From: Streptomyces sp. NBC_00341 | Lineage (GTDB): Bacteria; Actinomycetota; Actinomycetes; Streptomycetales; Streptomycetaceae | DNA: 64,000 nt | Assembly: GCF_041435055.1 (NCBI RefSeq) | Contig: NZ_CP108002.1 | Span: 992,001 to 1,056,000 of the forward strand | Reading direction: 5' to 3' | Part shown: in pieces, positions 39,534 through 63,809 of the stretch | Layout of the letters: the number at the start of each line of letters is the position of its first letter | How positions within the stretch are numbered: position 1 is the stretch's first letter | Position numbers and translations under genes: made by a program | The notes under the pieces: generated by a model | Told to the model about the DNA's origin: nothing | Databases searched by the model: none | What the model saw: only the letters and a program-made list of their open reading frames with translations

Positions 39534-39550
39534 GTCCCAGTGACCGGAAC
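39534..39550 (+). promoter_or_regulatory. 17-bp dyad, copy 1 (GTCCCAGTGACCGGAAC)
   Basis: Member of a five-copy family with half-sites GTNCCR and CGGNAC separated by five bases. 84 bases upstream of the acyl-CoA ligase start. Confidence 0.6.
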
Positions 39551-39634
39551 CGGCCGGGGGCCCGCGCGCCCGTACTGGCCGACACTGGCGTCGACCGCGA
39601 TTCCAGTGGAGTTCACGACGCCCAGGAGTTCCCG

Positions 39635-41272
39635 ATGTCCAGCGAAACGGATCACCGCACCCCCGCCCCGGCGACCGGGCTCACCGGCCCCGGCGGCCGG
39701 TTCGAGCTCCGCGACGACGAGGTGCTGGGCACCCGGCTGCCGGTGTTCACCCACCGGCAGCGGGCCCTGCACGAGGTGCTGCACGCGTCCGTGGCCTACG
39801 CCGAACGCGACTTCATCGTCACCGCGGACCGCCGGATCACCTTCGCCGGGCACGCGGCGCAGGTCGCCTCGCTGGCCCGGGTGCTGCGTGAGGAGTACGG
39901 CATCGCCAAGGGCGACCGGGTGGCCATCGCCGCCGCCAACTCACCGGAGTGGATAGCGGTGTTCTGGGCCACCGTGTCGATCGGCGCGGTGGCGGTCGGG
40001 TTCAACGCCTGGTGGTCGGCGCGGGAGATGGCCCACGGGCTGGGCAACGCGGAGCCCGCCCTCGTGGTGGCCGACGCCAGGCAGTCGGGAAAGCTGGCCG
40101 GCTGCACGGTTCCGGTGCTGTCCGTGGAGGAGGACATCGGCCGCTGCCTCACGGCCCACACCGGAGCGCCCCTGCCGTCCGCGGAGGTCGCGGAGGACGA
40201 CCCGGCCGTCATCCTCTACACCTCGGGCACCTCGGGCCGTCCCAAGGGCGCGGTGCACACGCATCGCAACCTGCTGGCCGTCGTCGAGTACCACCGCATG
40301 AACGACGCGCTGCTCCAGGAGTTCGGTGACCCGCTGCCCCCGCAGGACCGGGTGTACCTGCTGACGCTGCCGCTGTTCCACATCGCGAGCCTGCACAACC
40401 TGGCGGTGCCGAGGCTCGCCACCGGCAGCCGGATCGCTCTGCACCAGGGCGCGTTCGACGTGGACGCGGTGCTGGGCATGGTCGAGCGGGAGCGGGTCAC
40501 CAACTGGGGCGCGGTGCCGACGATGGCCCACCGGCTGCTCGAACACGGCGGCGCCGGCCGGTACGACACCTCCTCGCTGACGGCGTTCTCGCTGGCCTCC
40601 GCCCCGTCGTCGACCGCGTTCAAGGAGCGGTTGCGCACGAGCCTGCCGTTCGCGAAGGACTCGCTGGTGGACAGTTACGGACTGACCGAGACCTGTACCG
40701 CCGTCGCCGCGGCGAGCCCGCAGGAACTGGCGGCGGCCCCCGGCACCCTCGGCCGGCCCGTCACCGGTGTGGAGCTGGAGATCCGTGACCCCGGCGGTGA
40801 GGTGCTCGGCGAGGGCGAGGAGGGCGACATCTGGGTCCGCAGCCAGTACAACATGCTGGGTTACTGGGGTGATCCCGAGGCCACCGCCGGGGCCATCGGC
40901 CCGGACCGCTGGCTGCGCACCGGGGATCTGGGGCAGTTGCGCGAGGGCAGGCTCCATCTCAGCAGCCGCCGCTCGGACCTGATCATCCGGGGCGGCGAGA
41001 ACGTGTACCCCGCGGAGGTCGAGACGGTCCTGGCCGAACACCCGGACGTCCGGGAGTGCCTGGTGCTGGGAGTGCCGCATCCGGACCTCGGCCAGGAGGT
41101 CGCCGCCGTCGTGGTGCTCGCGGCGGGCTCCGCGCTCACCGAGGAGGCGCTGCGGGAGTACGCGGCACAGGAGCTGGCGTACTTCAAGGTGCCCAGGCGG
41201 TGGCGGCTGACCACGCGGGAGCTGCCGCGCAACGCGACCGGCAAGGTGATCCGGCCCGAGGTGCGGATCTGA
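39635..41272 (+). CDS. AMP-forming acyl-CoA ligase (FadD-like)
   Basis: 545 residues from ATG at 39635 (AGGAG six bases upstream). Adenylate-forming enzyme: P-loop [37 protein letters not shown] with the conserved Asp, hinge [20 protein letters not shown], and the catalytic Lys in [12 protein letters not shown]. Activates a carboxylic acid to its CoA thioester. Its dyad links it to the steroid genes to the right, so a steroid side-chain or bile-acid-type acid is a reasonable guess; a medium- or long-chain acid is the alternative. Followed by a terminator with alternative arms. Confidence 0.9.
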
Positions 41273-41309
41273 CGTCCCCGCCCCGGGCCGCGACCGGCCC
41301 GGACTCCAC

Positions 41310-41360
41310 GGTGCCCCGGCCACCCTGCGCGGCCGGGGCACCCTGCGCGGCCGGGGCACC
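41310..41360. terminator. Terminator with duplicated right arm
   Basis: GGTGCCCCGGCC (41310-41321) pairs perfectly with GGCCGGGGCACC at 41331-41342 or the second copy at 41349-41360; an 18-bp direct repeat (41322-41339 and 41340-41357) created the second arm. Between convergent ligase and SDR genes. Confidence 0.7.
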
Positions 41361-41372
41361 GTCGCGTCACGC

Positions 41373-42149
41373 TCAGAAGTGGCCGGGGCCGCGCAGGTTC
41401 GCCTCTGCGCCTCCGTCGACGTACACCACCTGCCCGGTGATGTGGCTGTTCTCCTCCGAGGCCAGGAACAGCGCGGCCGCCGCGACGTCCTCCGGCCGCA
41501 GATAGCCGTTGAGCGGCATCGGCACCGCCGCGTCCATCACCTTCTTCATCTCCGGGTCGTCGAAGAGAGCCGCGCTCATCGGGGTGAGCACGATGCCGGG
41601 CGCGACCACGTTGACCGGGATCCCGGCGGATGCCCAGCCCTCGGCGACCGCGGTGCGCCGGGCCCACTGGGCGAGCGCCGCCTTCGACGAGGGGTACAGC
41701 TGCCGGGCGCGGCCTTCGGTGACGGCCCGTTCCGCGTGCGTCAGGGCCGTGGCCTCGTCGTCGGCCAGGCAGGCGGCGACGACGTCCGCGTCAACCGGCT
41801 GGGTGCCGGAGATGGAGCCGATGGCCACCACCCGGGGCCGGTCCGCCGCGGCGAGTGCGGGCCGCAGCGCCGTCAGGAACCCGGTGGTGCCGAAGTAGTT
41901 GACGGTGACCATCGCGGTTCCCGGTACGGAGGTGCCGGCGCAGGTGACGACCGCGTCCACCACGCCGCCGGCCTCCTCCTGGGCCGCCGCCGCGGCGGTG
42001 GCGCGGCCTTCGGGGGTGGACAGGTCGGCGTCGACCTCGCCGCCGCGCAGGTCCACCCCGATCACCCGGTCGCCCCGGGCGCGGAGAGCTGCGGTGAGGG
42101 CCGCACCGATCCCGGATCCGGATCCGGTGACGACGACATTGCGGGGCAT
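41373..42149 (-). CDS. SDR resembling 3-alpha-hydroxysteroid dehydrogenase
   Basis: 258 residues from ATG at 42149 (GAGGAG five bases upstream). NAD-binding VVTGSGSGIGAAL, VDADLSTPEGR, VTCAGTSVPG and VSVNYFG-like TVNYFGTTGFLTALRPAL, catalytic Ser in IGSISGTQ and Tyr/Lys in YPSSKAALAQWARR, C-terminal YVDGGAEAN. The combination of ADLSTPEGR and VNYFGTT closely follows the Comamonas 3-alpha-hydroxysteroid dehydrogenase/carbonyl reductase pattern rather than FabG types. It would convert a 3-alpha-hydroxysteroid to the 3-ketone. Divergent from the LLM gene, with a dyad on each side of the shared control region. Confidence 0.82.
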   Translation of the reverse strand: MPRNVVVTGSGSGIGAALTAALRARGDRVIGVDLRGGEVDADLSTPEGRATAAAAAQEEAGGVVDAVVTCAGTSVPGTAMVTVNYFGTTGFLTALRPALAAADRPRVVAIGSISGTQPVDADVVAACLADDEATALTHAERAVTEGRARQLYPSSKAALAQWARRTAVAEGWASAGIPVNVVAPGIVLTPMSAALFDDPEMKKVMDAAVPMPLNGYLRPEDVAAAALFLASEENSHITGQVVYVDGGAEANLRGPGHF

Positions 42150-42235: not shown

Positions 42236-42252
42236 GTCCCGCTGGCCGGAAC
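42236..42252 (+). promoter_or_regulatory. 17-bp dyad, copy 2 (GTCCCGCTGGCCGGAAC)
   Basis: 86 bases upstream of the 3-alpha-HSD-like gene start (minus strand). In the 307-bp divergent region 42150-42456, which otherwise holds only copy 3. Confidence 0.6.
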
Positions 42253-42326: not shown

Positions 42327-42343
42327 GTTCCGGTCAGCGGGAC
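42327..42343 (-). promoter_or_regulatory. 17-bp dyad, copy 3 (inverted)
   Basis: Minus-strand GTCCCGCTGACCGGAAC, 113 bases upstream of the LLM oxidoreductase start. With copy 2 it forms a back-to-back pair serving two divergent genes. Confidence 0.6.
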
Positions 42344-42456
42344 CGGTCCTGCTTGCGCCGCGCGCGGCGACTTGGATGGGCTCTCGCCCCTGCTTCCCCT
42401 CCCGCTACCCACTCCCGCCGACCTTCCGACCCTGTCCTGACCGAGAGAGGTTCCCC

Positions 42457-43335
42457 ATGCGGCTAGGCATCAACAGTCCCGTCGTCACGGCCGTCCCCGG
42501 TGTCCACTCCCCCTGGGAGCGCACGGCCGGAATCGAGGAGCTGGGAGCGGTCGCAGAGGCCGCGGACCGGCTCGGCTTCGACCATCTGACCTGCTCGGAA
42601 CATGTCGCGGTGCCCGTGGACGTCGCCCGGCAGCGCGGCGGAACGTACTGGGATCCGCTCGCCACGTTCGGCTTTCTGGCCGCCCGGACCAGCCGGATCC
42701 GGTTCGCCACCCAGGTCCTGGTGCTCGGCTACCACCATCCGCTGGCCCTCGCGAAGCGCTACGGCACGCTGGACCGGGTCTCGGGCGGACGGCTGGTGCT
42801 GGGGCTCGGGGTGGGCAGCCTGGAGGAGGAGTTCCGGCTGCTGGGCGCCGAGTTCGGCGGCCGGGGGGCGATCGCGGACGACGCGGTCGCGGCGCTGCGG
42901 GCCTCGCTCTCCCGCCGTGAACCCGCTTACCACGGTGAGCACTTCGACTACCAGGGGCTCGTCGTGGAGCCGCACGCGGTACAGGACCGGGTACCCCTGT
43001 GGATCGGCGGCCGGACCCCGCGTTCGCTGCGCCGGGCGCTGACGCACGGCGATGGCTGGGTGCCGTTCGGGCTGCCGCTCGACCGGCTGCGCGAGATGGT
43101 CGCCGCGGCCGAGCTCCCGGCCGGCTTCGAGGTGGTGCTGAGCCCGGGCCGCCCGCTCGATCCGTCCGGCGAACCGGACCGTACGACGCGGGCACTGCGG
43201 CAGGTGTCCGACGCCGGTGCCACGCTGGTCAGCGTCTCGCTGAGCGCCGGGTCCGCGAGCCATTACGTGGAACAGCTGGAGGCCCTGGCCGTACTCGCCG
43301 GCACCACCACGGCGGACGCGGCGGCCCGCGCGTGA
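42457..43335 (+). CDS. LLM-class (probably F420-dependent) oxidoreductase
   Basis: 292 residues from ATG at 42457 with GAGAGAGG nine bases upstream. Luciferase-like TIM barrel: FDHLTCSEHVAVPVDVAR, RIRFATQVLVLGYHHPLALA, LDRVSGGRLVLGLGVGSLEE, followed by VPLWIGGRTPRSLRRALTHG. This pattern belongs to the F420-type subgroup common in actinobacteria. Reaction unknown; candidates are oxidation or reduction of a steroid ring. The stop overlaps the start of the NTF2-like gene, so the two are co-translated. Dyad copy 3 lies upstream. Confidence 0.88.
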   Translation: MRLGINSPVVTAVPGVHSPWERTAGIEELGAVAEAADRLGFDHLTCSEHVAVPVDVARQRGGTYWDPLATFGFLAARTSRIRFATQVLVLGYHHPLALAKRYGTLDRVSGGRLVLGLGVGSLEEEFRLLGAEFGGRGAIADDAVAALRASLSRREPAYHGEHFDYQGLVVEPHAVQDRVPLWIGGRTPRSLRRALTHGDGWVPFGLPLDRLREMVAAAELPAGFEVVLSPGRPLDPSGEPDRTTRALRQVSDAGATLVSVSLSAGSASHYVEQLEALAVLAGTTTADAAARA

Positions 43336-43823
43336 GCGGCGACCGGCCGGTATCGGTCGAGGCCCGGCTCGCGGCGTTGGAGGACGAACGCGATATCGCC
43401 CGCATGATGGCCTCTTACGGGCCACTGGTGGACGGCGGCGAGGCGGACGGTGTCGCGGCGCTCTGGGCGCCCGACGGTGTGTACGACATCGACGCGATCT
43501 TCCTGGCGGGCCGGGAGCGGATCCGCGAGATGGTGCGCTCGCCCGCGCACCAGGGCTGGATCCGGCAGGGCTGTGCCCATGTCGTGGGTCCGCCGCACGT
43601 CACGGTCACCGGGGACGAGGCCGTGGCGGTGTGCCACTCACTGATGGTGGTGCACGAGGCGGGCCGGTACACCGTGCGCCGGGCCACCGCCAACCACTGG
43701 CGGCTGCGCCGTACGGAGTCCGGCTGGCAGGTGGTCACCCGGACCAACCGGATCCTGGACGGCCGCCCGGACTCCCCCGGACTGCTGGTCCGAGGGGTGC
43801 GCGGGGAACCTGCGGGCGACTGA
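43332..43823 (+). CDS. NTF2-like/SnoaL-type protein
   Basis: 163 residues from GTG at 43332, which overlaps the LLM stop (GTGA at 43332-43335). ARLAALEDERDIARMMASYG, WAPDGVYDIDAIFLAGRERI and ANHWRLRRTESGWQVVTRTN form the alpha+beta barrel of the nuclear-transport-factor-2 superfamily (SnoaL_4 group), which includes ketosteroid isomerase and small-substrate dehydratases. With a DDG-type isomerase activity it could act on a steroid enone; a catalytic Tyr/Asp pair cannot be assigned with certainty. Confidence 0.82.
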   Translation: MSGDRPVSVEARLAALEDERDIARMMASYGPLVDGGEADGVAALWAPDGVYDIDAIFLAGRERIREMVRSPAHQGWIRQGCAHVVGPPHVTVTGDEAVAVCHSLMVVHEAGRYTVRRATANHWRLRRTESGWQVVTRTNRILDGRPDSPGLLVRGVRGEPAGD

Positions 43824-43862
43824 ACACGGCTGCTGCGGTGGCTGCGTGACGACCCGTTACAC

Positions 43863-43895
43863 GGGGGCTGCGCGAGGAGCGGTCGCGCAGCCCCC
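43863..43895. terminator. Bidirectional hairpin terminator
   Basis: Perfect 13-bp inverted repeat (43863-43875 with 43883-43895), loop of seven bases, between convergent NTF2-like and SDR genes. Confidence 0.75.
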
Positions 43896-43909
43896 GCCAC
43901 GGAGCGGCT

Positions 43910-44830
43910 TCAGCGCGCCCCGTACACCGGCTGCGGTGTCTCGGCGGCCGCGAGCAGTCCGGACGCGGCCGCCCCGGCCTCGGCCGGGGTCCAGCGGGCA
44001 CCCTTGTCGGCGGTGGGGCCGGGCCGCCAGCCCTCCATCACGGTGATCCGCCCGGCCTCGGCCTCGAAGACCCGGCCGCTGACCCCGGCGCACGCTTCTG
44101 ACCCCAGCCAGACGACGAGCGGCGAGACGTTCTCCGGGGCCATCGCGTCGAACCCTCCCCCGGCGGGCGCCGCCATGGTCTCGGCGAAGGTCTCCTCGGT
44201 CATCCTGGTCCGGGCGGCCGGGGCGATCGCGTTGACCTGCACCCCGTAGCGGCCCATCTCGGCGGCGGCCACCAGGGTCAGGGCGATGATCCCGGCCTTG
44301 GCGGCGGAGTAGCTGCCCTGGCCCACGCTGCCCAGCAGCCCTGCCCCGGAACCGGTGTTGACGACCCTCGCCACCGGCACCCGGCCGGCCTTCGCCTCGG
44401 CGCGCCAGTGCGCCGCCGCGTGCTTGAGCGGCAGGAAGTGGCCCCTGAGGTGGACGCGGGTCACCGCGTCCCAGTCGTCCTCGTCCAGGTTCACCAGCAT
44501 CCGGTCGCGGAGGAATCCGGCGTTGTTGACCAGGGTGTCGAGGCGGCCGAAGGAGTCGAGGGCGGTCGCGACGAGCGAGGCCGCGCCGTCGGCGGTGGCT
44601 ATGTCCCCGTGGTGCGCGACGGCCTCGCCGCCGGCCGCGCGGATCTCCTCGACGACCTGCTGGGCGGGGCCGACGGCCGCGCCGGCGCCGTCGGGGCCCA
44701 CGCCGAGGTCGTTGACGACGACCTGTCCGCCCTCGGCGGCGAAGGCCAGGGCGTGGGCGCGGCCGAGTCCGCGGCCCGCGCCGGTGACAACGGCGACGCG
44801 ACCGGCGCACAGGGCTGTCGATGAGGTCAT
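43910..44830 (-). CDS. SDR of the KstR2 regulon (Rv3548c-like)
   Basis: 306 residues; long for an SDR and close to the M. tuberculosis Rv3548c protein, which occupies the same position next to echA20. VTGAGRGLGRAHALAFAAEG, NDLGVGPDGAG (a multifunctional-enzyme-2-like NAD loop), NNAGFLRDRMLVNLDEDDWD, catalytic Ser/Tyr/Lys in NTGSGAGLLG and YSAAKAGIIALT, and C-terminal FEAEAGRITVMEGWR. The RDRML signature is typical of the peroxisomal 3-hydroxyacyl-CoA dehydrogenase type. Divergent from echA20 across a KstR2-like box. Exact step in C/D-ring breakdown is not known. Confidence 0.85.
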   Translation of the reverse strand: MTSSTALCAGRVAVVTGAGRGLGRAHALAFAAEGGQVVVNDLGVGPDGAGAAVGPAQQVVEEIRAAGGEAVAHHGDIATADGAASLVATALDSFGRLDTLVNNAGFLRDRMLVNLDEDDWDAVTRVHLRGHFLPLKHAAAHWRAEAKAGRVPVARVVNTGSGAGLLGSVGQGSYSAAKAGIIALTLVAAAEMGRYGVQVNAIAPAARTRMTEETFAETMAAPAGGGFDAMAPENVSPLVVWLGSEACAGVSGRVFEAEAGRITVMEGWRPGPTADKGARWTPAEAGAAASGLLAAAETPQPVYGAR

Positions 44831-44934
44831 GACGAGTGTCCTTTCGAGGGGCGACGAGCGGAGAACGGGGCGCCGGGACCACCGGGTGGACCGACGCTCT
44901 CCCGCGGCGTCCGTATCACTGCTACGTTGAATCT

Positions 44935-44948
44935 AACAAACGTTTGGT
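44935..44948. promoter_or_regulatory. KstR2-like operator A
   Basis: AACAAACGTTTGGT matches eight of ten fixed positions in the published KstR2 consensus AnCAAGnnCTTGnT. Lies between the SDR gene (start 44830) and echA20 (start 44970). On the minus strand TTAGATT just beyond the box is a possible -10 for the SDR gene, shared with operator B. Confidence 0.65.
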
Positions 44949-44969
44949 GGAAAGGTAGCTGATTCGCTC

Positions 44970-45725
44970 ATGAGTGTCTCCACCTCCGCCCCTCAAGAGG
45001 GCGTCGCCGTCGTCACCGTGGACTTCCCCCCGGTCAACGCCCTCCCCGTACAGGGCTGGTACGACCTCGCCGCCGCCGTGCGCGCGGCCGGGGCGGACCC
45101 GGACGTCCGCTGCGTGGTGCTCACCGCCGAAGGCCGCGGGTTCAACGCGGGCGTGGACATCAAGGAGATGCAGCGCACGGACGGGCCGGAGGCGCTGATC
45201 GGCGCCAACCGGGGCTGCTTCGAGGCATTCGCGGCGGTCTACGAGTGCGAGGTCCCCGTGGTCGCCGCCGTACACGGCTTCTGCCTCGGCGGCGGCATCG
45301 GCCTGGTGGGCAACGCGGACGCGATCGTGGCCAGTGACGACGCGACCTTCGGGCTGCCGGAGCTGGACCGGGGCGCGCTCGGCGCGGCCACACATCTGGC
45401 CCGGCTGGTTCCGCAGCATCTGATGCGGACCCTGTACTACACCTCACGCACCGTCACCGCCCAGGAGCTGCACGGACACGGCTCGGTGTGGCGCGTCGTC
45501 CCGCGTGCCGAGCTGTCCCGGGCCGCCGGGGAGCTGGCCCGGGAGATCGCGGCCAAGGACGGATACCTGATCCGGCTGGCCAAGGCGGCCATCAACGGCA
45601 TCGACCCGGTCGACGTACGCCGCAGCTACCGCTTCGAGCAGGGCTTCACCTTCGAGGCCAACCTCAGTGGCGTCGCCGACCGCGTGCGCGACACCTTCGG
45701 CACGGACAAGGAGCAGCAGACGTGA
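44970..45725 (+). CDS. echA20: Enoyl-CoA hydratase-family ring-opening enzyme EchA20
   Basis: Crotonase-fold protein, 251 residues (M. tuberculosis EchA20 is 247). VVLTAEGRGFNAGVDIKEMQ and HGFCLGGGIGLVGNADAIVA are the oxyanion-hole segments; PELDRGALGAATHLARLVP is the second active-site region. In steroid C/D-ring degradation EchA20 hydrolytically opens the first ring of the HIP-CoA-derived intermediate. First gene of echA20-ipdA-ipdB-ipdC, with its stop overlapping the next start. The identification rests on the intact neighbourhood as well as sequence. Confidence 0.88.
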   Translation: MSVSTSAPQEGVAVVTVDFPPVNALPVQGWYDLAAAVRAAGADPDVRCVVLTAEGRGFNAGVDIKEMQRTDGPEALIGANRGCFEAFAAVYECEVPVVAAVHGFCLGGGIGLVGNADAIVASDDATFGLPELDRGALGAATHLARLVPQHLMRTLYYTSRTVTAQELHGHGSVWRVVPRAELSRAAGELAREIAAKDGYLIRLAKAAINGIDPVDVRRSYRFEQGFTFEANLSGVADRVRDTFGTDKEQQT

Positions 45726-46588
45726 CACACGACAAGACGATGACGGCCGACGACGTCGTCGGCCGGCTGGAGAGCGGGATGACGCTCGGCATCGGCGGCT
45801 GGGGTTCGCGCCGCAAGCCGATGGCCCTGGTCAGGGCGCTGCTGCGCTCGGACGTCACCGATCTGACCGTGGTGTCGTACGGCGGGCCCGATGTCGGGCT
45901 GCTCGCCGCCGCGGGAAGGATCCGCAAGCTGGTCGCGGCGTTCGGGACGCTCGACTCGATACCGCTGGAGCCGCACTTCACCGCCGCCCGGCAGCGCGGC
46001 GCGTTCGAGATGGTCGAGCTCGACGAGGCGATGATGATGTGGGGGCTGACGGCGGGCGCGCAGCGGCTGCCGTTCATGCCGGTGCGGGCCGGTCTCGGCT
46101 CCGACCTGATGAAGGTCAACCCGGGCCTGCGTACGGTCACCTCGCCCTACGAGGACGGGGAGAAGCTGGTCGCCGCACCGGCCCTGCGGCTGGACGCCGC
46201 CCTGGTCCACCTCAACCGGGCCGACGCCCAGGGCAACGGCCAGTACCTGGGCCCCGATCCGTACTTCGACGACCTGTTCTGCGAGGCGGCGGACCACAGC
46301 TACGTCTCCTGCGAACGGATCGTGGAGACCGCGGACCTGCTCAAGGAGCACGGGCCGCAGACGCTGCTGGTCAAGCGGCTGTTCGTGGACGGGGTCGTCG
46401 AGACGCCGAACGGCGCGCACTTCACCTCCTGCGTGCCCGACCACGACCGGGACGAGAGCTTCCAGCGCGCCTATGTCCGGGCCGCCCGCGATCCCGAGGC
46501 CTGGCCCGTCTTCGCCGAACGGTTCCTGTCAGGGGACGAGGCCGCCTACCAGGCCGCCGTCACCGCGTTCCACCAGGAGGAAGCATGA
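45722..46588 (+). CDS. ipdA: COCHEA-CoA hydrolase subunit IpdA (CoA-transferase fold)
   Basis: 288 residues from GTG at 45722, overlapping the echA20 stop. CoA-transferase alpha-subunit fold: LESGMTLGIGGWGSRRKPMALVRALL (seen as LGIGGWGSRRKPMALV), VVSYGGPDVGLL, VRAGLGSDLMKVNPG. IpdAB resembles class I CoA transferases but works as a hydrolase that opens the last steroid ring (COCHEA-CoA). Length matches the M. tuberculosis protein (292). The downstream ipdB overlaps by four bases, as expected for the two subunits of one complex. Confidence 0.92.
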   Translation: MTHDKTMTADDVVGRLESGMTLGIGGWGSRRKPMALVRALLRSDVTDLTVVSYGGPDVGLLAAAGRIRKLVAAFGTLDSIPLEPHFTAARQRGAFEMVELDEAMMMWGLTAGAQRLPFMPVRAGLGSDLMKVNPGLRTVTSPYEDGEKLVAAPALRLDAALVHLNRADAQGNGQYLGPDPYFDDLFCEAADHSYVSCERIVETADLLKEHGPQTLLVKRLFVDGVVETPNGAHFTSCVPDHDRDESFQRAYVRAARDPEAWPVFAERFLSGDEAAYQAAVTAFHQEEA

Positions 46589-47364
46589 GCGGCACCGAGT
46601 CCACCGGCAGCGCGGCGGCGAGCCGGGCGGAGTACTGCGTGGTGGCGTGCGCCGAGGCGTGGCGGGACGCCGGCGAGATCCTCGCCAGTCCGATGGGCAC
46701 CGTCCCGGCCATCGGGGCGCGCCTGGCCAGGCTCACCTTCTCGCCCGAACTGCTGCTGACCGACGGGGAGGCGCTGCTGACGGGCGACACCCCCGCGCTG
46801 GGGGCGCGGGCCGCGAGCATCGAGGGCTGGCTGCCGTTCCGCCAGCATCTGACGCTCACCGCGACCGGCCGCCGGCACGTGATGATGGGCGCCAGCCAGA
46901 TCGACCGGCACGGCAACCAGAACATCTCCTGCATCGGCCCCTGGGACAGGCCCGTGCGGCAGCTGCTCGGGGTCCGCGGGGCCCCGGTCAACACCCTCAA
47001 CAACCCCACGAGTTACTGGGTGCCGAAGCACTCGTCCCGGGTGTTCGTGGAGCACGTGGACATGGTCAGCGGGGTCGGGTACGAGCGGGCGGCGGCGGCC
47101 GGTCCCTCCGCGACCCGCTACCACCGCATCCCCGAAGTCGTCTCCAATCTGGGCGTCTTCGACTTCGAGACCCCGGACCGCACCATGCGGCTGCGCTCGC
47201 TGCACCCCGGGGTGAGCGTCGAGGAAGTCACCGGGGCCACCGGTTTCGCCCTCACGATCCCCGACGGCGTGCCGCTCACCCGGGACCCGTCGGAGGCGGA
47301 ACTCCGGCTGATCCGCGAGGTCATCGACCCGAAGGGGCTGCGCGAGCGCGAGGTCCCGGCATGA
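46585..47364 (+). CDS. ipdB: COCHEA-CoA hydrolase subunit IpdB (CoA-transferase fold)
   Basis: 259 residues from ATG at 46585 (AGGAGG six bases upstream). CoA-transferase beta-subunit fold: SPMGTVPAIGARLARLTFSP, HVMMGASQIDRHGNQNISCI, VNTLNNPTSYWVPKHSSRVF and LRSLHPGVSVEEVTGATGF. Forms a heterotetramer with IpdA to hydrolyse the ring-D cyclic diketone CoA thioester, giving a linear CoA thioester for beta-oxidation. ATGA overlaps at both ends show tight translational coupling. Confidence 0.92.
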   Translation: MSGTESTGSAAASRAEYCVVACAEAWRDAGEILASPMGTVPAIGARLARLTFSPELLLTDGEALLTGDTPALGARAASIEGWLPFRQHLTLTATGRRHVMMGASQIDRHGNQNISCIGPWDRPVRQLLGVRGAPVNTLNNPTSYWVPKHSSRVFVEHVDMVSGVGYERAAAAGPSATRYHRIPEVVSNLGVFDFETPDRTMRLRSLHPGVSVEEVTGATGFALTIPDGVPLTRDPSEAELRLIREVIDPKGLREREVPA

Positions 47365-48437: not shown

Positions 48438-48445
48438 CGCACGCG

Positions 48446-48489
48446 GACGCGAAGGGGCGGTCCGGACCCACGGGCCGCCCCCTCGCGTC
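48446..48489. terminator. Terminator of the echA20-ipdABC operon
   Basis: 15-bp inverted repeat with one mismatch (48446-48460 with 48475-48489), eight bases after the ipdC stop. Confidence 0.7.
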
Positions 48490-48617
48490 GTCAACGGCGG
48501 CGAACTCGCGCGCCGCGGACGTGCCCCGGGCCGACAGCGCGCCGGAAAAGTCTGCACCAGAGCGGAATTATGGCTTCCGTCACAGCGGTTACCGAGGCGC
48601 TCTGGTGAGATCACCGG

Positions 48618-49592: not shown

Positions 49593-49616
49593 GTCACCCG
49601 GCCCGGCCGGCACGTA

Positions 49617-50774
<1,158 letters not shown>

Positions 50775-50806
50775 GACTGCTCCTTCGTAGGGACGGTGCT
50801 GGCGTG

Positions 50807-52191: not shown

Positions 52192-53354
<1,163 letters not shown>

Positions 53355-53370
53355 GGGGGTACGTTAATCT

Positions 53371-53384
53371 ACCAAACACTAGTT
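53371..53384. promoter_or_regulatory. KstR2-like operator B
   Basis: ACCAAACACTAGTT matches eight of ten fixed positions of AnCAAGnnCTTGnT. Lies in a 46-bp gap between fadE30 (start 53354, minus) and the hydratase (start 53401, plus). The flank TACGTTAATCTA repeats that of operator A (TACGTTGAATCTA). Confidence 0.7.
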
Positions 53385-53400
53385 AGGGAAGGAGGGGCCG

Positions 53401-56410: not shown

Positions 56411-56434
56411 CCGCACACGGAGGGGAGCAGCCGG

Positions 56435-57508
56435 ATGAGGCTGACTGAGGAGCAGGACGAGCTGCGGTCGGCCGTCCGCTCACTGCTGACGAAACATCAG
56501 GGCCACGGTGCCTGGGACCTGTTGTCGGGCCAGATCGGTGCGGCCGGGCTCGCCGTGCCCGAGGAGTACGGCGGGGCAGGCGGGGGCGCCAGGGACGTCC
56601 ATGTGCTGATGGAGGAGCTGGGCCGGAGCCTGAGCCCGCTGCCGTTTCTGGGCTCGGCGGTCCTCACCGTGGGCGCGTTGCTGGCCTCCGGCGACAGGGA
56701 GGCCTGCGGGCGGCTGCTGCCGGGGCTCGCGGAGGGCGCCTTGGTGGGCACGCTGGCCTGGGCCGAACGCGGCTCCTGGGATCCGGCGGCGATCCGCGCC
56801 GGGGCCGTGCCCGGGCCCGGCGGGGGCTGGCTGCTCACCGGGACCAAGGAGCATGTGCTCGACGGACCCGATACCGATGTGCTGCTCGTCGCGGCCCGTA
56901 CGGCGTCGGGGGTCTCACTCTTCGAGGTGCCCGCCGCGGGTGCCGGGGTGCGCCGGGAGCCCGTCGTGACCATGGACGGCACCCGGAGCCAGGCCCGCTG
57001 GGTGCTGGAGGGCGCCGGGGGCCGGCTGCTGGGTGCAGACGGCGAGGGCGGACGGACCCTGGAGCACGTACGGGATCTGGCGTGCGCGGCGCTGGCCGCC
57101 GAACAGGTGGGGGCGGCCGCCCGCGCGCTGGAGCTCACCGTGCAGTACGCCGTGGACCGGGTGCAGTTCGGGCGGCCCATCGGCTCCTTCCAGGCCGTCA
57201 AGCACCGGCTGGCGGACGCCTACGTGGCTGTGGAGTCGGCGCGTTCGGCCGCGCTCGGGGCCGCGTTCGCGGCGGACGAGGACCCGGGCGCGCTGCCGCG
57301 GGCCGCCGCCGTCGCCAAGTCGGTCTGCTCCGAGGCGTTCTCGGCGGTGGCCGGCGAGATGATCCAGCTGCACGGCGGGATCGGGATCACCTGGGAGCAC
57401 GACGCGCACCGCTACTTCAAGCGGGCGCACGGGTCCGGCGAGCTGTTCGGCCCGCCCGCCCACCACCGGGCCCGGCTCGCCGCCGGGCTCGGACTGACCG
57501 CGCGCTGA
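56435..57508 (+). CDS. fadE33: Acyl-CoA dehydrogenase FadE33
   Basis: 357 residues from ATG at 56435 (GGGGAG eight bases upstream). GLAVPEEYGGAGGGARDVHV, QYAVDRVQFGRPIGSFQAVK, HRLADAYVAVESAR, MIQLHGGIGITWEHDAHRYF. Third member of the fadE31-33 set; late dehydrogenation step of C/D-ring catabolism. Like FadE32 it lacks a full middle domain. It is 24 bases after fadE32. Confidence 0.87.
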   Translation: MRLTEEQDELRSAVRSLLTKHQGHGAWDLLSGQIGAAGLAVPEEYGGAGGGARDVHVLMEELGRSLSPLPFLGSAVLTVGALLASGDREACGRLLPGLAEGALVGTLAWAERGSWDPAAIRAGAVPGPGGGWLLTGTKEHVLDGPDTDVLLVAARTASGVSLFEVPAAGAGVRREPVVTMDGTRSQARWVLEGAGGRLLGADGEGGRTLEHVRDLACAALAAEQVGAAARALELTVQYAVDRVQFGRPIGSFQAVKHRLADAYVAVESARSAALGAAFAADEDPGALPRAAAVAKSVCSEAFSAVAGEMIQLHGGIGITWEHDAHRYFKRAHGSGELFGPPAHHRARLAAGLGLTAR

Positions 57509-57557
57509 AACCCGTCGGACGAGATCGGACAAGATCGAACAGGAGAGGCCTCACATC

Positions 57558-58346
57558 ATGGACACCGAAAGCCCGTTGGACTTCACCGGGCGCGTGGTGC
57601 TGGTCACCGGCGGCACCAAGGGCATCGGGGCCGCCATCGCCGCGGCCTTCCTCGGGGCCGGGGCGGACGTGGTGGTCTGCGGACGCACCACCCCGGACAC
57701 CCTGCCCGCCGCCGGGGGCCGGGAGGCCGTCTTCCTCGCCGCCGACGTGCGCGACCCGGCGGCGGCGTCCTGGCTGGTCGACAGCGCGGTGGAGCGCTTC
57801 GGCCGGCTCGACGTGCTCGTCAACAACGCGGGCGGCTCCCCGGACTCCGACGCGGCCACCGTCTCACCGCGCTTCGTCGAGAAGATCGTCGCGCTCAATC
57901 TGCTCGCACCCTTCTACGTGGCGCAGGCGGCCCACCGCGTCATGCGGGACCGGGAAGGCGGCGGTTCGATCGTCAACATCGGCAGCGTCTCCGCCCACGA
58001 CCCGCAGCCCGGCACCGCCGCCTACACCGCCGCCAAGGCCGGGCTCCTGGCGCTCACCAAGGCGCTGGCCCTGGAGTGGGCGCCCGCGGTCCGGGTCAAC
58101 CACATCACCACCGGGCTGATCCGCACGCCGAACGCGGCCTCCGTCTACGGCGCGGACGGCGGCGCCGCGGTGGCGGGCGTCATCCCGATGGGCCGGATGG
58201 CCGTGCCGGAGGACGTCGCCCGTGCCTGCCTGTTCCTCGCCAGCGAGCTGTCCGGATACGTCAACGGGGCGGATCTCGCGGTGCACGGCGGCGGGGAGTT
58301 CCCGGCCCGCTACCTCGCCGCGAGGGCGGCGGGCGAACCGGGGTGA
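57558..58346 (+). CDS. SDR family oxidoreductase at the end of the fadE31-33 operon
   Basis: 262 residues from ATG at 57558 (AGGAG nine bases upstream). VVLVTGGTKGIGAAIAAAFL, NNAGGSPDSDAATVSPRF, catalytic Ser in NIGSVSAHDPQ, Tyr/Lys in YTAAKAGLLALTK, AVHGGGEFPARYL at the end. Same strand as fadE33, 49 bases downstream, and followed by a strong terminator, so the last gene of this operon. Probably a 3-hydroxyacyl-CoA dehydrogenase acting after the hydratase; specific substrate unproven. Confidence 0.83.
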   Translation: MDTESPLDFTGRVVLVTGGTKGIGAAIAAAFLGAGADVVVCGRTTPDTLPAAGGREAVFLAADVRDPAAASWLVDSAVERFGRLDVLVNNAGGSPDSDAATVSPRFVEKIVALNLLAPFYVAQAAHRVMRDREGGGSIVNIGSVSAHDPQPGTAAYTAAKAGLLALTKALALEWAPAVRVNHITTGLIRTPNAASVYGADGGAAVAGVIPMGRMAVPEDVARACLFLASELSGYVNGADLAVHGGGEFPARYLAARAAGEPG

Positions 58347-58350
58347 GGAC

Positions 58351-58394
58351 GCGCACAGGTCCCGTACCCCGCGCGGGGTACGGGACCTGTGCGC
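58351..58394. terminator. Perfect 22-bp palindrome, bidirectional terminator
   Basis: Left arm 58351-58372 is the exact reverse complement of right arm 58373-58394, with no spacer. It fills the 52-bp gap between the convergent SDR gene and hsaA. The longest perfect palindrome noticed in the window. Confidence 0.8.
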
Positions 58395-58398
58395 GCGC

Positions 58399-59565
58399 TC
58401 AGACCAGGTTGTCCTCGACCGTCAGCCCGAAGGCCCCGCGGCCGTACATGGCCAGCGCGCGTTCCACGTCGTTGGCGACATGGACGCTGCCCGCGTGGGC
58501 GTCGCGCCAGGCGCGTTCGACGGGGTTGCCGCGGCGCAGCGCGTTGCCGCCCGCCGTCTTGAAGAGCAGGTCGATCGCGGCGACGGCCCGTTCGGTGCCC
58601 CGGACCTGGTCGCGCCGGGTGCGCAGCCGCAGCTCCATGGGGATCTCCCCTCCGGTGGACGCGAGTTGGGACAGCTCGCGCAGGTTCCGGTCCATCTGGA
58701 GGACCGTCGCGTCGATGTCGGAGGCGGCGCGCGCGATGGCGACCTGGGCGAACGGGTCCTCGGCGAAGCTGCCGCCGCCCAGGCTGAGCCGTACCCGCTC
58801 CTTCATCCGCGACACGTAGGAGGCGTAGCCGCCCGACACCGCCCCGACCACCGGTGCGGTGATGGCGCTCGTGAAGATCGCGCCGAACGGCAGCCGGTAC
58901 AGCGGACCCGGGTTGACCTGCTGGCCGGGCACCTTGAGGCGGGCCTGCTCGTAGTTGCGGAGCACCCGGTGGCCCGGCACGAACGCCGACTCGACGAGGA
59001 TGTCGTTGCTGGCGGTGCCCCGGAGCCCGACCACGTCCCACATGTCCTCGATCCGGTAGTCGCAGCGCGGCACCAGGACGGTGAGGAAGTCCACCGGCCG
59101 TCCCCGCGCGCCGACGACGAGCGCGCCGAGCAGCGCCCACGAGGCGTGTTCGCAGCCCGAGGAGAAGCTCCACCGGCCGGCCAGCCGGTAGCCGCCGTCG
59201 ACCGGTGTCAGCCGGCCGACCGGGGCGTACGAGGAGGAGACCAGGGTGTCCTGGTCCTCGCCCCACACGTCCTCCTGGGCCCGCCCCGGGAACAGGCCCA
59301 GCTGCCAGGGGTGCACGCCCAGGACGGACGCCACCCAGCCCGTGGAGCAGCACACCGCGGAGATCGCCCGCACCACCTGGTAGAAGTCGACCGGGTCCGC
59401 CTCCAGGCCGCCGTACCGGGCCGGCTGGAGCATCCGGAACACCCCGGCACCGGTCAGCTCCTCGATCGTGGTGTCCGGGATACGCCGGTCCTCGTCCGTG
59501 GCCGCGGCCCGCTTCCCGATGGCCGGCAGCAGGGCGCGCACCGACTCCAGAACCTCGTTGCCCAT
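58399..59565 (-). CDS. hsaA: Flavin-dependent 3-HSA hydroxylase HsaA (oxygenase component)
   Basis: 388 residues from ATG at 59565 (GGAGG seven bases upstream); M. tuberculosis HsaA has 394. Acyl-CoA-dehydrogenase-fold monooxygenase: LQPARYGGLEADPVDFYQVV, CCSTGWVASVLGVHPWQLGL, WSFSSGCEHASWALLGALVV, DVVGLRGTASNDILVESAFV, WRDAHAGSVHVANDVERALA. It would hydroxylate 3-HSA to the catechol 3,4-DHSA in steroid A/B-ring cleavage, using reduced flavin from HsaB, which is not encoded in this window. Same strand as fadD3, 41 bases downstream of it. Confidence 0.88.
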   Translation of the reverse strand: MGNEVLESVRALLPAIGKRAAATDEDRRIPDTTIEELTGAGVFRMLQPARYGGLEADPVDFYQVVRAISAVCCSTGWVASVLGVHPWQLGLFPGRAQEDVWGEDQDTLVSSSYAPVGRLTPVDGGYRLAGRWSFSSGCEHASWALLGALVVGARGRPVDFLTVLVPRCDYRIEDMWDVVGLRGTASNDILVESAFVPGHRVLRNYEQARLKVPGQQVNPGPLYRLPFGAIFTSAITAPVVGAVSGGYASYVSRMKERVRLSLGGGSFAEDPFAQVAIARAASDIDATVLQMDRNLRELSQLASTGGEIPMELRLRTRRDQVRGTERAVAAIDLLFKTAGGNALRRGNPVERAWRDAHAGSVHVANDVERALAMYGRGAFGLTVEDNLV

Positions 59566-59606
59566 AGTCCGTCCTCCATGCCCTTGTGCTCTGTGGAGCG
59601 TGTCCG

Positions 59607-61202
59607 TCAGACCGTCCGCAGGGCGGCCTTGTCCACCTTGCCGGTGGCGTTGCGCGGGAGGGCCCCGAGGACGACGACCTCGCGGGGGACCTTGAAGTTG
59701 GCGAGCCGCTCGCGGCAGTGGCCGACGAGCTCGTCCGGCCCGGTCCCGGTGCCCGGACGGACCGTCACGTACGCGCGTCCGACCTCGCCGAGCCGGGCGT
59801 CCGGTACGCCGACCACGGCGGCCTCCGCCACGGCGTCGTGCCCGGCGAGCACCTGCTCGACCTCGGCCGGGTACACGTTGAACCCGCCGACCACGAACAT
59901 GTCCTTGGAGCGTCCGGTGATCACCAGGTTGCCGCGTGCGTCGAGGTGGCCGATGTCGCCGGTGTCCAGCCGGCCGTCCGCGTCGACGGCCGCCGCGCTC
60001 GCCTCCGGGTCGTCCAGGTAGCCGAGCATCACGTGGAAGCCGCGCACCAGGATCCGGCCGTCCTGCCCGGCGGGCAGCGCGTGCCCGGCGGCGTCGGTCA
60101 CGAGCACCTCGGTGCCGTCGATCGGGCGGCCCGCGGTGCGGGCCACGGTCTCGGCGTCGTCGTCCGCCGAGCAGACGGTGACCGTGCCGCAGGTCTCGGT
60201 CAGCCCGTACGCGGTGAGCACCTCGGGGAAGAGTTCGGCCCGCATCCTGCGGACCAGGGCGACGGGCACGTCGGAGGCGCCGGTCACCGCGAGCCGCAGC
60301 GACGAGAGGTCGAACCGGTGCCGGCCGGGCGCGTCCAGCAGTTCGGTGTAGATCGTGGGCGGGCCGGGCAGCACGGTGATCCGTTCGGCCTCGACGGCGC
60401 GCAGGACCCGGTCCGCGTCGAACACCGGCTGGAGGACCATCGTGGCGCCCCGCAGCAGGCAGGCCAGTACGCCGGCCTTGTAGCCGAAGCAGTGGAACAT
60501 CGGGTTCACGATCAGGCAGCGGTCGTCGCCGGTGACTCCGGTGCGGCTGCTCCAGGCCCGGTAGGTGGTGAGGTTCTGCCGGTGCGTGGTCAGGGCGCCC
60601 TTGGGCCGGCCGGTCGTGCCGGAGGTGAAGAGCAGGTCGGACGGGTCGTCGGGGTGCACCTCCGCGCCGCGGGCGGTGGCCTCTGAGTCCGACAGCCGCT
60701 CGCCGCGGCGCAGGAAGCGGTCCCACGGCAGGGTGCCGGGGCGCTCGGTGCCGTCGAAGGTCACCACCCGTTCCAGGCGGGGCAGTGCGGGCACCGGCCG
60801 GCCGTCGTCGCCGGGGCCGCGGCCGGTGTCCAGCATGGCGAGGTAGTCCTTGCCCAGGAAACCGTTCTCGACGAACAGCAGCCGCACACCGCCGCGTTCC
60901 AGGAGCCAGCTCGCCTCCGCGCCCCGGTAGCGGGTGTTGACGGGGACCAGGACCGCTCCGGCGGACGCGGCGGCGAGTGCGGCCACCACCCAGCGGTGGC
61001 TGTTGGGCGCCCAGACGGCGATCCGGTCACCGGGCCGGATGCCGAGGGCGATCAGCGACTTCACGGCCGTCCGCACCCGGGCCTCCAGCCCCGCCCAGGT
61101 GAGCCGTACGCCGCCGTCCACGACCGCGTCCCGGCCGGGGTGCAGGCGCGCGGCGAGGCCGAGGGCGCCGGGGATGGTGAGTGGGTGCTCGGTCTCGCTC
61201 AT
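59607..61202 (-). CDS. fadD3: HIP-CoA ligase FadD3 (AMP-forming)
   Basis: 531 residues. LLFTSGTTGRPKGALTTHRQ is the P-loop; [58 protein letters not shown] and [13 protein letters not shown] with the catalytic Lys complete the adenylate-forming fold. The hinge region is close to mycobacterial FadD3, which starts C/D-ring breakdown by attaching CoA to HIP. Here it lies with hsaA instead of beside fadE30-31. Start ATG at 61202 after a weak Shine-Dalgarno. Another aromatic or fatty acid ligase is possible, but the context favours FadD3. Confidence 0.82.
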   Translation of the reverse strand: MSETEHPLTIPGALGLAARLHPGRDAVVDGGVRLTWAGLEARVRTAVKSLIALGIRPGDRIAVWAPNSHRWVVAALAAASAGAVLVPVNTRYRGAEASWLLERGGVRLLFVENGFLGKDYLAMLDTGRGPGDDGRPVPALPRLERVVTFDGTERPGTLPWDRFLRRGERLSDSEATARGAEVHPDDPSDLLFTSGTTGRPKGALTTHRQNLTTYRAWSSRTGVTGDDRCLIVNPMFHCFGYKAGVLACLLRGATMVLQPVFDADRVLRAVEAERITVLPGPPTIYTELLDAPGRHRFDLSSLRLAVTGASDVPVALVRRMRAELFPEVLTAYGLTETCGTVTVCSADDDAETVARTAGRPIDGTEVLVTDAAGHALPAGQDGRILVRGFHVMLGYLDDPEASAAAVDADGRLDTGDIGHLDARGNLVITGRSKDMFVVGGFNVYPAEVEQVLAGHDAVAEAAVVGVPDARLGEVGRAYVTVRPGTGTGPDELVGHCRERLANFKVPREVVVLGALPRNATGKVDKAALRTV

Positions 61203-61268
61203 CTGCTCTCCGGAAGGGGACGGCCCGCGGGGTGCGAACGGGAGGGTGTACCGGTTGCTGAGGCTCCG

Positions 61269-62063
61269 TCAGGACGGTTTCGGCAGCAGCCTTCTGGACG
61301 CCTCATCGGCTCCGAGCACCAGGTCGGCGCGGGGGAATCCGCTGCGCTTCTCCGCGGCCCCCGCGTTGCCGCCCGCGACCCGCACGGGACCGTCGCCCAG
61401 GTGTTCCAGTCCCTCCCTGGCGATGTCGTCCGGCTCGGCCACGTTCAGTCCTGGCAGGTCCATCCGCAGTCCCGCGCGCTCCATGGCGGGGGTGCGGGTC
61501 ACACCGAGGACGAGCTCAAGGACGTGGACGCCGTACGGCCGCAGTTCCAGCCAGAGCCCCTCCGCGAAGACCCGGCTGAACGCCTTGGCCGCCGAGTAGA
61601 CGCTGATCCGCGCCTGGCCCAGGTATCCGGCCAGCGAGCCGACCAGCAGGATGCCGCCCCGGCCCCGCTCCTTCATCAGGGCCCCGAAGTGGTGGGTGAG
61701 GGCGAGCTGCGCGGTGATGTTGAGGTCGAGGACGTCCTGGACCCGGTCCAGGTCTCCGGTCACGAACTCGTGGCCGTAGCTGTTGGCTCCCGCGTTGAAG
61801 ACCAGCAGGCCGATCTCCAGACCGTCGGTGGCAGCCCGGACGGCGGCCGGGGCGGCGGGGTCGAGCAGGTCGAGTGCGAGGGTGCGGACCTCGACGCCCT
61901 GGGCGCGTGCCAGCTCCGCGGTCTCGTTCAGCGGGCCGGGCCTGCGGGCGATCAGCACCAGGTTGATCCCGGCGTCCGCGAGGAGGCGGGCGAACGAGGC
62001 GCCGACCCCCTCCGACCCTCCGGCGACGACCGCCCACGGCCCGTATTCGTTCCTGTCCAGCAT
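61269..62063 (-). CDS. SDR family oxidoreductase
   Basis: 264 residues from ATG at 62063 (AGGAGAGG about nine bases upstream). AVVAGGSEGVGASFARLLAD, LLVFNAGANSYGHEFVTGDL, catalytic Ser in LVGSLAGYLGQ and Tyr/Lys in YSAAKAFSRVFAEGL. The GGSxGVG glycine motif and the HSD-like VFAEGLWLELRPYGV segment place it nearer the 17-beta-HSD/KAR-type SDRs than FabG. Dyad copy 4 lies 73 bases upstream. A steroid hydroxyl oxidoreductase is plausible. Confidence 0.82.
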   Translation of the reverse strand: MLDRNEYGPWAVVAGGSEGVGASFARLLADAGINLVLIARRPGPLNETAELARAQGVEVRTLALDLLDPAAPAAVRAATDGLEIGLLVFNAGANSYGHEFVTGDLDRVQDVLDLNITAQLALTHHFGALMKERGRGGILLVGSLAGYLGQARISVYSAAKAFSRVFAEGLWLELRPYGVHVLELVLGVTRTPAMERAGLRMDLPGLNVAEPDDIAREGLEHLGDGPVRVAGGNAGAAEKRSGFPRADLVLGADEASRRLLPKPS

Positions 62064-62136
62064 CGGATGCCTCTCCTTCTGTCCCGGCCGCCGGTGCCGT
62101 GACCGTAGAACGCTGTTCGGGGCCGTACCGCCGGCG

Positions 62137-62153
62137 GTCCCACTGGCCGGGAC
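62137..62153 (+). promoter_or_regulatory. 17-bp dyad, copy 4 (GTCCCACTGGCCGGGAC)
   Basis: 73 bases upstream of the SDR start at 62063 (minus strand) and 20 bases after the kstD-like stop. Half-sites GTCCCA and CGGGAC. Confidence 0.6.
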
Positions 62154-62173
62154 GGCTCCGGCCGCCGGCCGGG

Positions 62174-63721
62174 TCAGCGGCCCTCGCGCGCCAGGTGGCG
62201 GACGGCGAGGGAGGCGAAGACCATGGCGCTGCCGAGGGGAACGCCGGGGCCCGGATAGACCCGGCCGGTGAAGGACGCGCTGGTGTTCCCGGCCGCGTAC
62301 AGGCCGGGGAGGGGGCGGCCCTCCCGGTCGAGGACGCGGGCGTGGGCGTCCGTGCGCAGTCCGCCCTTGGTGCCGAGGTCCGCGAGGACCAGCCGGGCCG
62401 CGTAGTACGGCGGCCGGTCGAGCGGGACCAGGCACGGGTTGGGTCCCGGGGCGTTCCCTGCGGCGAAGAACAGGTCGTAGGGGTCCTCGCCCCGGTGGTG
62501 GTCCTCGTCCCTGCCGGTCGCGGCGAAGCCGTTGAAGCGGGCGACGGTGTCCGTCAGGGCCTGGGCGGGTACGCCGATGAGCGCGGCGAGCCCCGACAGC
62601 GAGTCGGCCCGCACCCAGGCACCGGCGGCCAGTTGCCGCGCGGGGTCCGCGGGCGGCACGGTGATGGCGGGCAGGGCGCCGCCCTCGCGGGAGTCGAAGA
62701 CCAGGTGGACGGGTGTGTCCGCGCCCCGGGCGGCCATGGCCCGGCCCATCCGGTCGTACGGCAGCGACTCGTTGGCGAACCGCCGCCCAGAGCCGTCCAC
62801 GGCCAGGCCGCCGCGCAGCCCGAGGGTGAACGCGGCCGTGCTGTCGGGGAGTTCGGTACCCGGGCACCACCAGGCCTCGTCCATGAGAGCGGTGCCGGCA
62901 CCGGCCTCGACGGCGGCCCGCAGTACCTCTCCGGTGTTGGTGCCCCGGGGCGCCATGCTCCAGCCGGCGCCGCCGGGCACCCGGTGCTCGGTGCGCAGGG
63001 CGTCGTCGCCCTCGAAGCCGCCCGCGGCCAGCAGCACCCCGCGCCGGGCCCGTACCCGGACCGTGCCGTGCGCCGTGCGCGCCTCGACTCCGGTGACCCG
63101 GCCCTCCTCCGTGACCAGCCCGGTCACCCGGTGGCCGGTGCGGACCCGGGCGTTCCCGGTCCGGGTGGCGGCCAGCAGCAGGCGGCCGATGAGGGCGCGG
63201 CCCGCGCTCAGCGGTGCGTCGGGGTGGCCCAGGCCGGCGCGGTCCCGGCCGACCGCCGGGCGTACCAGGGGCAGCAGTTCACCCAGCAGCCCGGGCGCCA
63301 GGTCGAGCGGTACGAAGGAGCGCCCGGCGTCCATCCGGCCGGGGGCCGCGACGTAGTCGGGGAAGGCACGCCACTCGAACGCGATGGCGGGGTCGGCCTC
63401 CAGCCGGGCCACCAGTTCGGGGGCGTGCCGCAGGAAGGCCTCCCGGCGCTCCGCCTCCGCGTCACCGGTCAGGGCCCGCAGGTAGCGGCGCGCGGCCTCG
63501 GTGGAGTCGTCGAGACCGGCCCGCTCCTGCACCTGGGTGCCGGGCAGCCAGCAGGCCGCCCCGGAGTAGGCGGAGGTGCCGCCGAGCAGCGCCGTCCGTT
63601 CCAGTACGACGGTGTCGAGGCCCTCCCCGGCGGCCGCCAGCGCTCCGGTCAGCGCTCCCGCGCCGGACCCGACGACGATCACGTCGTGGGTGGCGTCCCA
63701 TTCCTGCCGGCCGTCCCGCAT
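62174..63721 (-). CDS. KstD-like FAD-dependent 3-ketosteroid dehydrogenase
   Basis: 515 residues from ATG at 63721 (AGGAGGGG within ten bases). N-terminal FAD-binding VIVVGSGAGALTGALAAAGE, TALLGGTSAYSGAACWLPG, and C-terminal GLYAAGNTSASFTGRVYPGP then GVPLGSAMVFASLA, corresponding to the substrate-binding YPGPG Tyr/Gly region of 3-ketosteroid-delta1-dehydrogenases. Length (510-560 is usual) fits. Introduces a delta-1 (or related) double bond in a 3-ketosteroid A ring. Divergent from a TetR gene, with dyad copy 5 between. A delta4-(5-alpha)-dehydrogenase or fumarate-reductase-like ketosteroid enzyme is the alternative. Confidence 0.83.
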   Translation of the reverse strand: MRDGRQEWDATHDVIVVGSGAGALTGALAAAGEGLDTVVLERTALLGGTSAYSGAACWLPGTQVQERAGLDDSTEAARRYLRALTGDAEAERREAFLRHAPELVARLEADPAIAFEWRAFPDYVAAPGRMDAGRSFVPLDLAPGLLGELLPLVRPAVGRDRAGLGHPDAPLSAGRALIGRLLLAATRTGNARVRTGHRVTGLVTEEGRVTGVEARTAHGTVRVRARRGVLLAAGGFEGDDALRTEHRVPGGAGWSMAPRGTNTGEVLRAAVEAGAGTALMDEAWWCPGTELPDSTAAFTLGLRGGLAVDGSGRRFANESLPYDRMGRAMAARGADTPVHLVFDSREGGALPAITVPPADPARQLAAGAWVRADSLSGLAALIGVPAQALTDTVARFNGFAATGRDEDHHRGEDPYDLFFAAGNAPGPNPCLVPLDRPPYYAARLVLADLGTKGGLRTDAHARVLDREGRPLPGLYAAGNTSASFTGRVYPGPGVPLGSAMVFASLAVRHLAREGR

Positions 63722-63792
63722 GGGGTGCCCCTCCTGCCGCTCGGTGGTGTGGGGCCCAGCAGACCCGCTCCGGGGCGGCGGGCGCGGGGCCG

Positions 63793-63809
63793 GTCCCGCT
63801 GACCGGTAC
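63793..63809 (+). promoter_or_regulatory. 17-bp dyad, copy 5 (GTCCCGCTGACCGGTAC)
   Basis: Between the kstD-like start (63721, minus; 71 bases away) and the TetR start (63895, plus; 85 bases away), as expected for an autoregulated divergent pair. Confidence 0.65.

Follow-up and report, generated by a model that had tools for sequence, protein, structure and literature searches.

What reads the repeated dyads of a steroid gene cluster in Streptomyces sp. NBC_00341? The window analysed here, a whole stretch of 64,000 nucleotides from contig NZ_CP108002.1 (positions 992,001 to 1,056,000), carries five copies of a 17-base dyad (GTNCCR-N5-CGGNAC), which a first-pass annotation had proposed as the mark of a candidate second steroid regulon, perhaps read by the TetR-type protein encoded at 63895. 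The regulon is real, and neither its regulator nor its motif is new: on comparative sequence evidence, the sites are very probably operators of the TetR at 63895, which belongs to the KstR3 family found in actinobacterial cholate (bile-acid) gene clusters.

The five dyads lie where the annotation had placed them (Table 1), five matches in the window against an expectation of 0.77, and in 100 shuffles that many never came up. When the likeliest start codons are used, all five are intergenic and stand 71-113 bases from the start of a gene (for the LLM-class oxidoreductase gene, which has an alternative ATG at 42376, the start at 42457 is the point where the alignment of 13 orthologs begins). Genome-wide the loose 17-mer is weak, with 115 matches in 9.06 Mb compared with 53 for the reversed control pattern, and it was dropped for genome-wide counting because its background is too high. 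The spacer is conserved as well and belongs to the informative motif, and the outermost G/C of the motif varies among relatives. A strict form, GTCCCRSTGRCCGGNAC, is found at six places in the genome, always between C1:1031534 and C1:1071939 (41 kb), the sixth copy lying outside the window and beyond the view of the annotation; the 149 other genomes searched, presumed members of the same genus, hold 0-3 copies each. The annotation had proposed a genome scan as a check, and held that a motif found equally often inside coding regions or upstream of unrelated genes would speak against the regulon. The loose pattern goes halfway towards that outcome; the strict pattern does not, its copies being confined to the cluster. 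As the strict form was picked after the sites had been seen, a fair test has to come from promoters in other genomes. Even so, that these are chance dyads in DNA of 71% GC content, a view to which the abundance of the loose form lends some colour, has a practically negligible probability, given that the strict form keeps to the cluster and that other genomes have sites before the same genes, a conservation that already contradicts chance. A pattern with N at position 11 matched 8 times here but also 8 times in a genome that lacks a close relative of the TetR (G062), and was not used as proof.

The scoring matrix drew on seven sites of this genome, two of which lie beyond the window (79877 and 79923 are among those used). 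Scanned over 112 kb, made up of the window and three stretches next to it, the matrix returned 14 sites of at least 12 bits. In window numbering these all fall in 39450-89540, and they include one before casG that was absent from the first-pass list. Of 25 other genome matches put through a crude test for coding frame, 18 came out as lying in one (a single match was so close to a contig end that it could not be scored); this test was discarded because six of the 14 cluster sites were flagged too, five through over-long open reading frame starts.

The evidence that ties the sites to the regulator comes from their linkage across genera. A single scan confirmed 123 relatives of the TetR, of which the best 80 were kept, with up to 10 kb of flanking DNA each. 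In 72 of these best 80 loci, which span 15 genera by a hand count of record titles, the 400 bp upstream of tetR hold a site of at least 12 bits, roughly at -82 to -182; put through the same test, 100 permuted matrices averaged 0.54 loci and never exceeded 12. Over whole loci, the true matrix produced 282 matches in 78 of the 80, compared with 10-95 matches in 9-56 of the 80 for eight permuted matrices. It is probable, as first proposed, that the TetR at 63895 reads the sites and regulates its own gene.

For counts per gene, the start of the tblastn alignment was taken as the gene start, and matches below 42% identity or 55% coverage were dropped, as was any gene whose start lay within 350 bp of the end of its locus. 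Among the 80 loci a site precedes casG in 13 of 13 cases, kshA in 45 of 55, kstD-like genes in 42 of 57, the short-chain dehydrogenase (SDR) gene adjoining tetR in 31 of 46, casI in 9 of 14 and the LLM-class gene in 3 of 4, together with one of two HsaD-like genes and neither of two flavin reductase genes. Genes inside presumed operons have few or no sites (for example 0/33, 1/44 and 3/48). The earlier proposal that the regulon joins casG with ring and side-chain genes is supported.

A number of observations weigh against assigning the sites to this TetR. The 80 loci were chosen by similarity of their TetR and are not independent, and eight of them (L062, L070, L073, L110, L115, L119, L124 and L125) have no site of at least 12 bits upstream of tetR. 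Sites are missing in 10 of the 55 kshA and 15 of the 57 kstD-like cases, in 40 of 54 thiolase genes (present in 14), in 30 of 35 SDR1 relatives (present in five) and in all 14 fadD3 genes; for SDR2 they were missing in six of seven cases and present in one, a count made with an over-long query that became 13 of 13 when the test was redone. In this genome, the SDR gene adjoining tetR has only an 8.8-bit site. At least one strict match is present in 60 of 150 genomes, including isolated matches in genomes without a close TetR relative. Finally, a tree of 36 proteins sets the TetR with five close relatives in one clade (100/100), the genome's own distant paralog being far outside, and eight second Streptomyces copies in another (100/100). 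The latter clade is joined by two Nocardioides proteins (99/97, on a long branch), which are thus placed nearer to the second Streptomyces TetR than to the 63895 protein. The 63895 TetR may therefore not be the one-to-one ortholog of KstR3 of Nocardioides simplex, and confidence in the assignment is lower by a hair on that account.

To which family does the regulator belong? The TetR is 54-60% identical to Rhodococcus and Nocardia proteins, which places it in the family of the Rhodococcus cholate-cluster TetR. Its closest solved relative is 3bjb (8.5e-65), and a relative from Rhodococcus jostii NBRC 16295, 57% identical to the TetR, matches 3bjb almost residue for residue over its length, from which we infer that the 3bjb structure is that of the TetR from the RHA1 cholate cluster. 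A helix region, VQMHEVAK-x-AGVAI, shows hardly any variation among the 80 relatives; the distant paralog of this genome has R where 76 of the 80 have H. Matches to the TetR at 1e-30 occur in 84 of 150 genomes of the genus, close ones only in this genome and in G070 (93%), the other 82 holding only a paralog of 35-42% identity.

That the regulator might instead be KstR or an SRTF1-like steroid repressor with a drifted site is suggested by its similarity to KstR chains over nearly its whole length (about 1e-19), and by SRTF1 of N. simplex, which likewise adjoins a kstD gene, with its site between the two (PMC7807495). This is very improbable: the protein scores 100.4 bits with the NCBIfam KstR equivalog model, whose cut-off is 280, and 3bjb is far closer to it than KstR, the one of these two repressors that the comparison covered. 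What the KstR3-type regulator shares with KstR and KstR2 is the TetR superfamily, steroid target genes and, for KstR, sequence similarity. The KstR consensus (TNNAACNNGTTNNA) has 11 window matches with at most one mismatch, and the core of the KstR2 consensus (ACAAGNNCTTGT) has 20 with at most two; none falls on the five sites. The notion of a steroid regulon apart from those of KstR and KstR2 is supported.

A closer view of the targets comes from thirteen distinct genomes of close Streptomyces relatives (G070 and the L051 genome share coordinates and were counted once). In all thirteen the casG promoter has two sites 82-85 bp apart, matching those at 39450 and 39534 here, and the equivalent of the former scores 13.6-13.9 bits throughout; the gene for a solute-binding protein (SBP) is the divergent neighbour of casG in every case. 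The LLM ortholog has at least one upstream site in 13 of 13 relatives (threshold 11 bits), as does SDR2, with a site of 10.6-15.0 bits lying 69-155 bp from the alignment start. The 15-base core of the SDR2 site, TCCCACTGGCCGGGA, is kept in 12 of the 13 (L052 differs), and in L059 the SDR2 site is the same one as was counted for tetR.

In nine of these thirteen relatives (L130, L132, L133 and L135-L140), a second KstR3-like TetR, 46-52% identical to the 63895 protein, is encoded between SDR1 and the LLM gene, with sites adjoining. Together with an IclR gene beyond the cluster, this raises the question of whether another regulator, for instance a protein like that second KstR3-type TetR or the IclR protein, reads the palindrome and the 63895 TetR is a mere neighbour. 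We consider this unlikely, since the only PF17925 TetRs in this genome are the 63895 protein and a distant paralog, with no second KstR3-like TetR among them, yet the two sites between SDR1 and LLM are kept; the site before 63895-type tetR genes in most loci argues the same way. The distant paralog, 37% identical to the TetR, is encoded at G000:C1:2448702-2449298.

The assignment of the sites to the KstR3-type TetR at 63895 can be set against previous work. In N. simplex, a palindrome TCCCGGT[C/G]ACCGGGA, named Lcin1, was predicted in 2020 in a lithocholate-induced cluster, with a site at a kshA ortholog (PMC7593942); with G and C ends, it scores 23.1 bits on our matrix, which was built only from the present genome. 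That publication of the motif, and the KstR3 membership of the TetR, go against the first-pass suggestion that regulator and motif may be new. The same study names KR76_18060 (a KstR3 ortholog) and KR76_18605 as presumptive factors for two new N. simplex motifs, adding that the matter "requires further research"; there the link between regulator and site was presumed from induction data, whereas here it comes from promoter linkage. A review places a KstR homolog in the cholate cluster of R. jostii (PMC8399759, section 4), and in the R. jostii NBRC 16295 locus (L065) casG is present with a site; the R. jostii tetR site is weaker, at 12.4 bits. KstR3 of Mycolicibacterium neoaurum, by its published description, has the same name and a part like the one proposed here, being a TetR-type protein that acts negatively on an operon for the steroid side chain; it differs in that this operon is atf1-chsH4-chsE6 (PMC10398937). 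A search of the open-access literature found no binding study of this cholate-cluster regulator.

For binding, sign of control, ligand and operon limits we propose the following. Without ligand, a TetR dimer would be expected to sit on the palindrome TCCC-RST-S-RSY-GGNA, about 70-115 bp upstream of start codons, and would there block casG, the SBP/ABC operon, SDR1, LLM, SDR2 (and perhaps fadD3) and the kstD-like gene, as well as its own gene, casI and kshA/thiolase. A molecule derived from bile acids, perhaps in a 3-keto or coenzyme A-linked form, would release it. The annotation had further suggested that the regulon skips the KstR2-type core lying between its sites. No site of at least 12 bits occurs in this C/D-ring block (42344-62136), the best being one of 11.6 bits at 61020, so that this part stands; the skip may nevertheless be incomplete, because the site at 62137 precedes SDR2, whose downstream neighbour on the same strand is fadD3.

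Curated models identify several genes of the cluster (Table 1), as well as the steroid thiolase (677 bits against an NCBIfam cut-off of 515), casI (968 against 900) and kshA (KshA C-terminal domain, 315 bits); the HsaD-like protein falls below its curated cut-off. CasG and CasI act on cholate, activating its C5 and C3 side chains (PMC8708139, PMC8399759), so the cluster looks like a bile-acid cluster. Two first-pass labels fare less well. For SDR1, called 3-alpha-hydroxysteroid dehydrogenase-like, none of the 25 NCBIfam matches shown reaches its cut-off, and that role is at most putative; the protein labelled "kstD-like" is below the cut-off in every curated NCBIfam match listed.

Table 1. Operator-like sites and genes of the cluster, in window numbering (the window ends at 64000).
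Feature	Position	Strand	Remarks
Operator-like site ATCCCACTCACCGGGAG	39450..39466	+	between SBP gene and casG; 13.9 bits with the seven-site matrix
Operator-like dyad	39534..39550	+	upstream of casG; window pattern match
Operator-like dyad	42236..42252	+	upstream of SDR1 (minus strand); window pattern match
Operator-like dyad	42327..42343	-	upstream of LLM gene; window pattern match
Operator-like dyad	62137..62153	+	upstream of SDR2 (minus strand); window pattern match
Operator-like dyad	63793..63809	+	between divergent kstD-like and tetR genes; 21.9 bits (tetR's own site)
Site beyond window	73910		before casI; 18.4 bits
Sites beyond window	79728, 79877, 79923		between steroid thiolase gene and kshA; 12.9, 18.7 and 21.9 bits
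Sites beyond window	89456, 89524		between HsaD-like hydrolase and flavin reductase; 14.0 and 14.4 bits
Sites beyond window	68789, 68078		no clear promoter role; 15.0 bits, and 12.7 bits (68078, inside a gene)
ABC ATPase	33662-34678	-	PF00005 + PF08352; after SBP, same strand
ABC permease	35721-36761	-	PF00528; after SBP, same strand
Peptide-type ABC transporter SBP	37716..39329	-	PF00496; divergent from casG
casG, steroid-24-oyl-CoA synthetase	39635..41272	+	NCBIfam NF052580, 890 bits, cut-off 750; likely start ATG 39635
SDR1, short-chain dehydrogenase	41373..42149	-	PF13561; likely start ATG 42149
F420-dependent LLM-class oxidoreductase	42457..43335	+	TIGR03619, 239 bits, cut-off 167; likely start ATG 42457
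fadD3-like acyl-CoA ligase	59607..61202	-	NCBIfam FadD3 family, 700 bits, cut-off 657; 66 bp downstream of SDR2, same strand
SDR2, short-chain dehydrogenase	61269..62063	-	PF00106; likely start ATG 62063
kstD-like FAD-binding dehydrogenase	62174..63721	-	PF00890; likely start ATG 63721
TetR regulator, KstR3 type, 203 aa	63895..64000	+	PF17925 + PF00440; likely start GTG 63895; gene runs 506 bases past the window

Knowledge of how bile-acid breakdown is controlled was described as limited in a 2021 review (PMC8399759, section 4). The present locus supplies a regulator, a likely operator and a list of targets with strong comparative support, in a genus where this regulator is uncommon, and it brings out a candidate importer, while its repressor might find use in sensing bile acids. 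Beyond the strong linkage of regulator and site and the occurrence in Streptomyces, the additions are a second KstR3-like TetR in relatives and, as likely members of the regulon, the peptide-type ABC transporter, the F420-type LLM enzyme and SDR2-fadD3, which appear to be undescribed in the literature consulted. More tentatively, and with somewhat more doubt than belief, one might see in the Streptomyces KstR3 regulon a complete switch for bile-acid uptake and entry. In this view a promoter with two operators would serve casG and, divergent from it, a peptide-type ABC importer; the switch would also take in an LLM enzyme that depends on F420 and is not known from the classical route. Most close relatives would add another KstR3 copy next to the same palindrome, and a single regulon would then be shared by two paralogous repressors.

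Some further observations concern the neighbourhood. The ABC transporter at 33662-39329 on the minus strand is a candidate importer of bile acids or their conjugates. A second KstD-type FAD enzyme (L017:4779-6485, minus strand) lies about 22 kb downstream of tetR and adjoins HsaD-like and HMGL-like genes; it scores 890 bits with PRK12835, a model for "FAD-binding protein" with a cut-off of 837, and is below the named KstD models. The 11 window matches to the KstR consensus compare with 3.2 expected, and one of them, at 864-877, is exact (TGGAACGTGTTCCA). In the divergent promoter at 44831-44969 no match to the KstR2 consensus was found, and it holds the palindrome CAAACGTTTG instead. Within this promoter, which serves C/D-ring genes, positions 44936-44947 read ACAAACGTTTGG, with a perfect 10-bp palindrome, and resemble a KstR2 operator.

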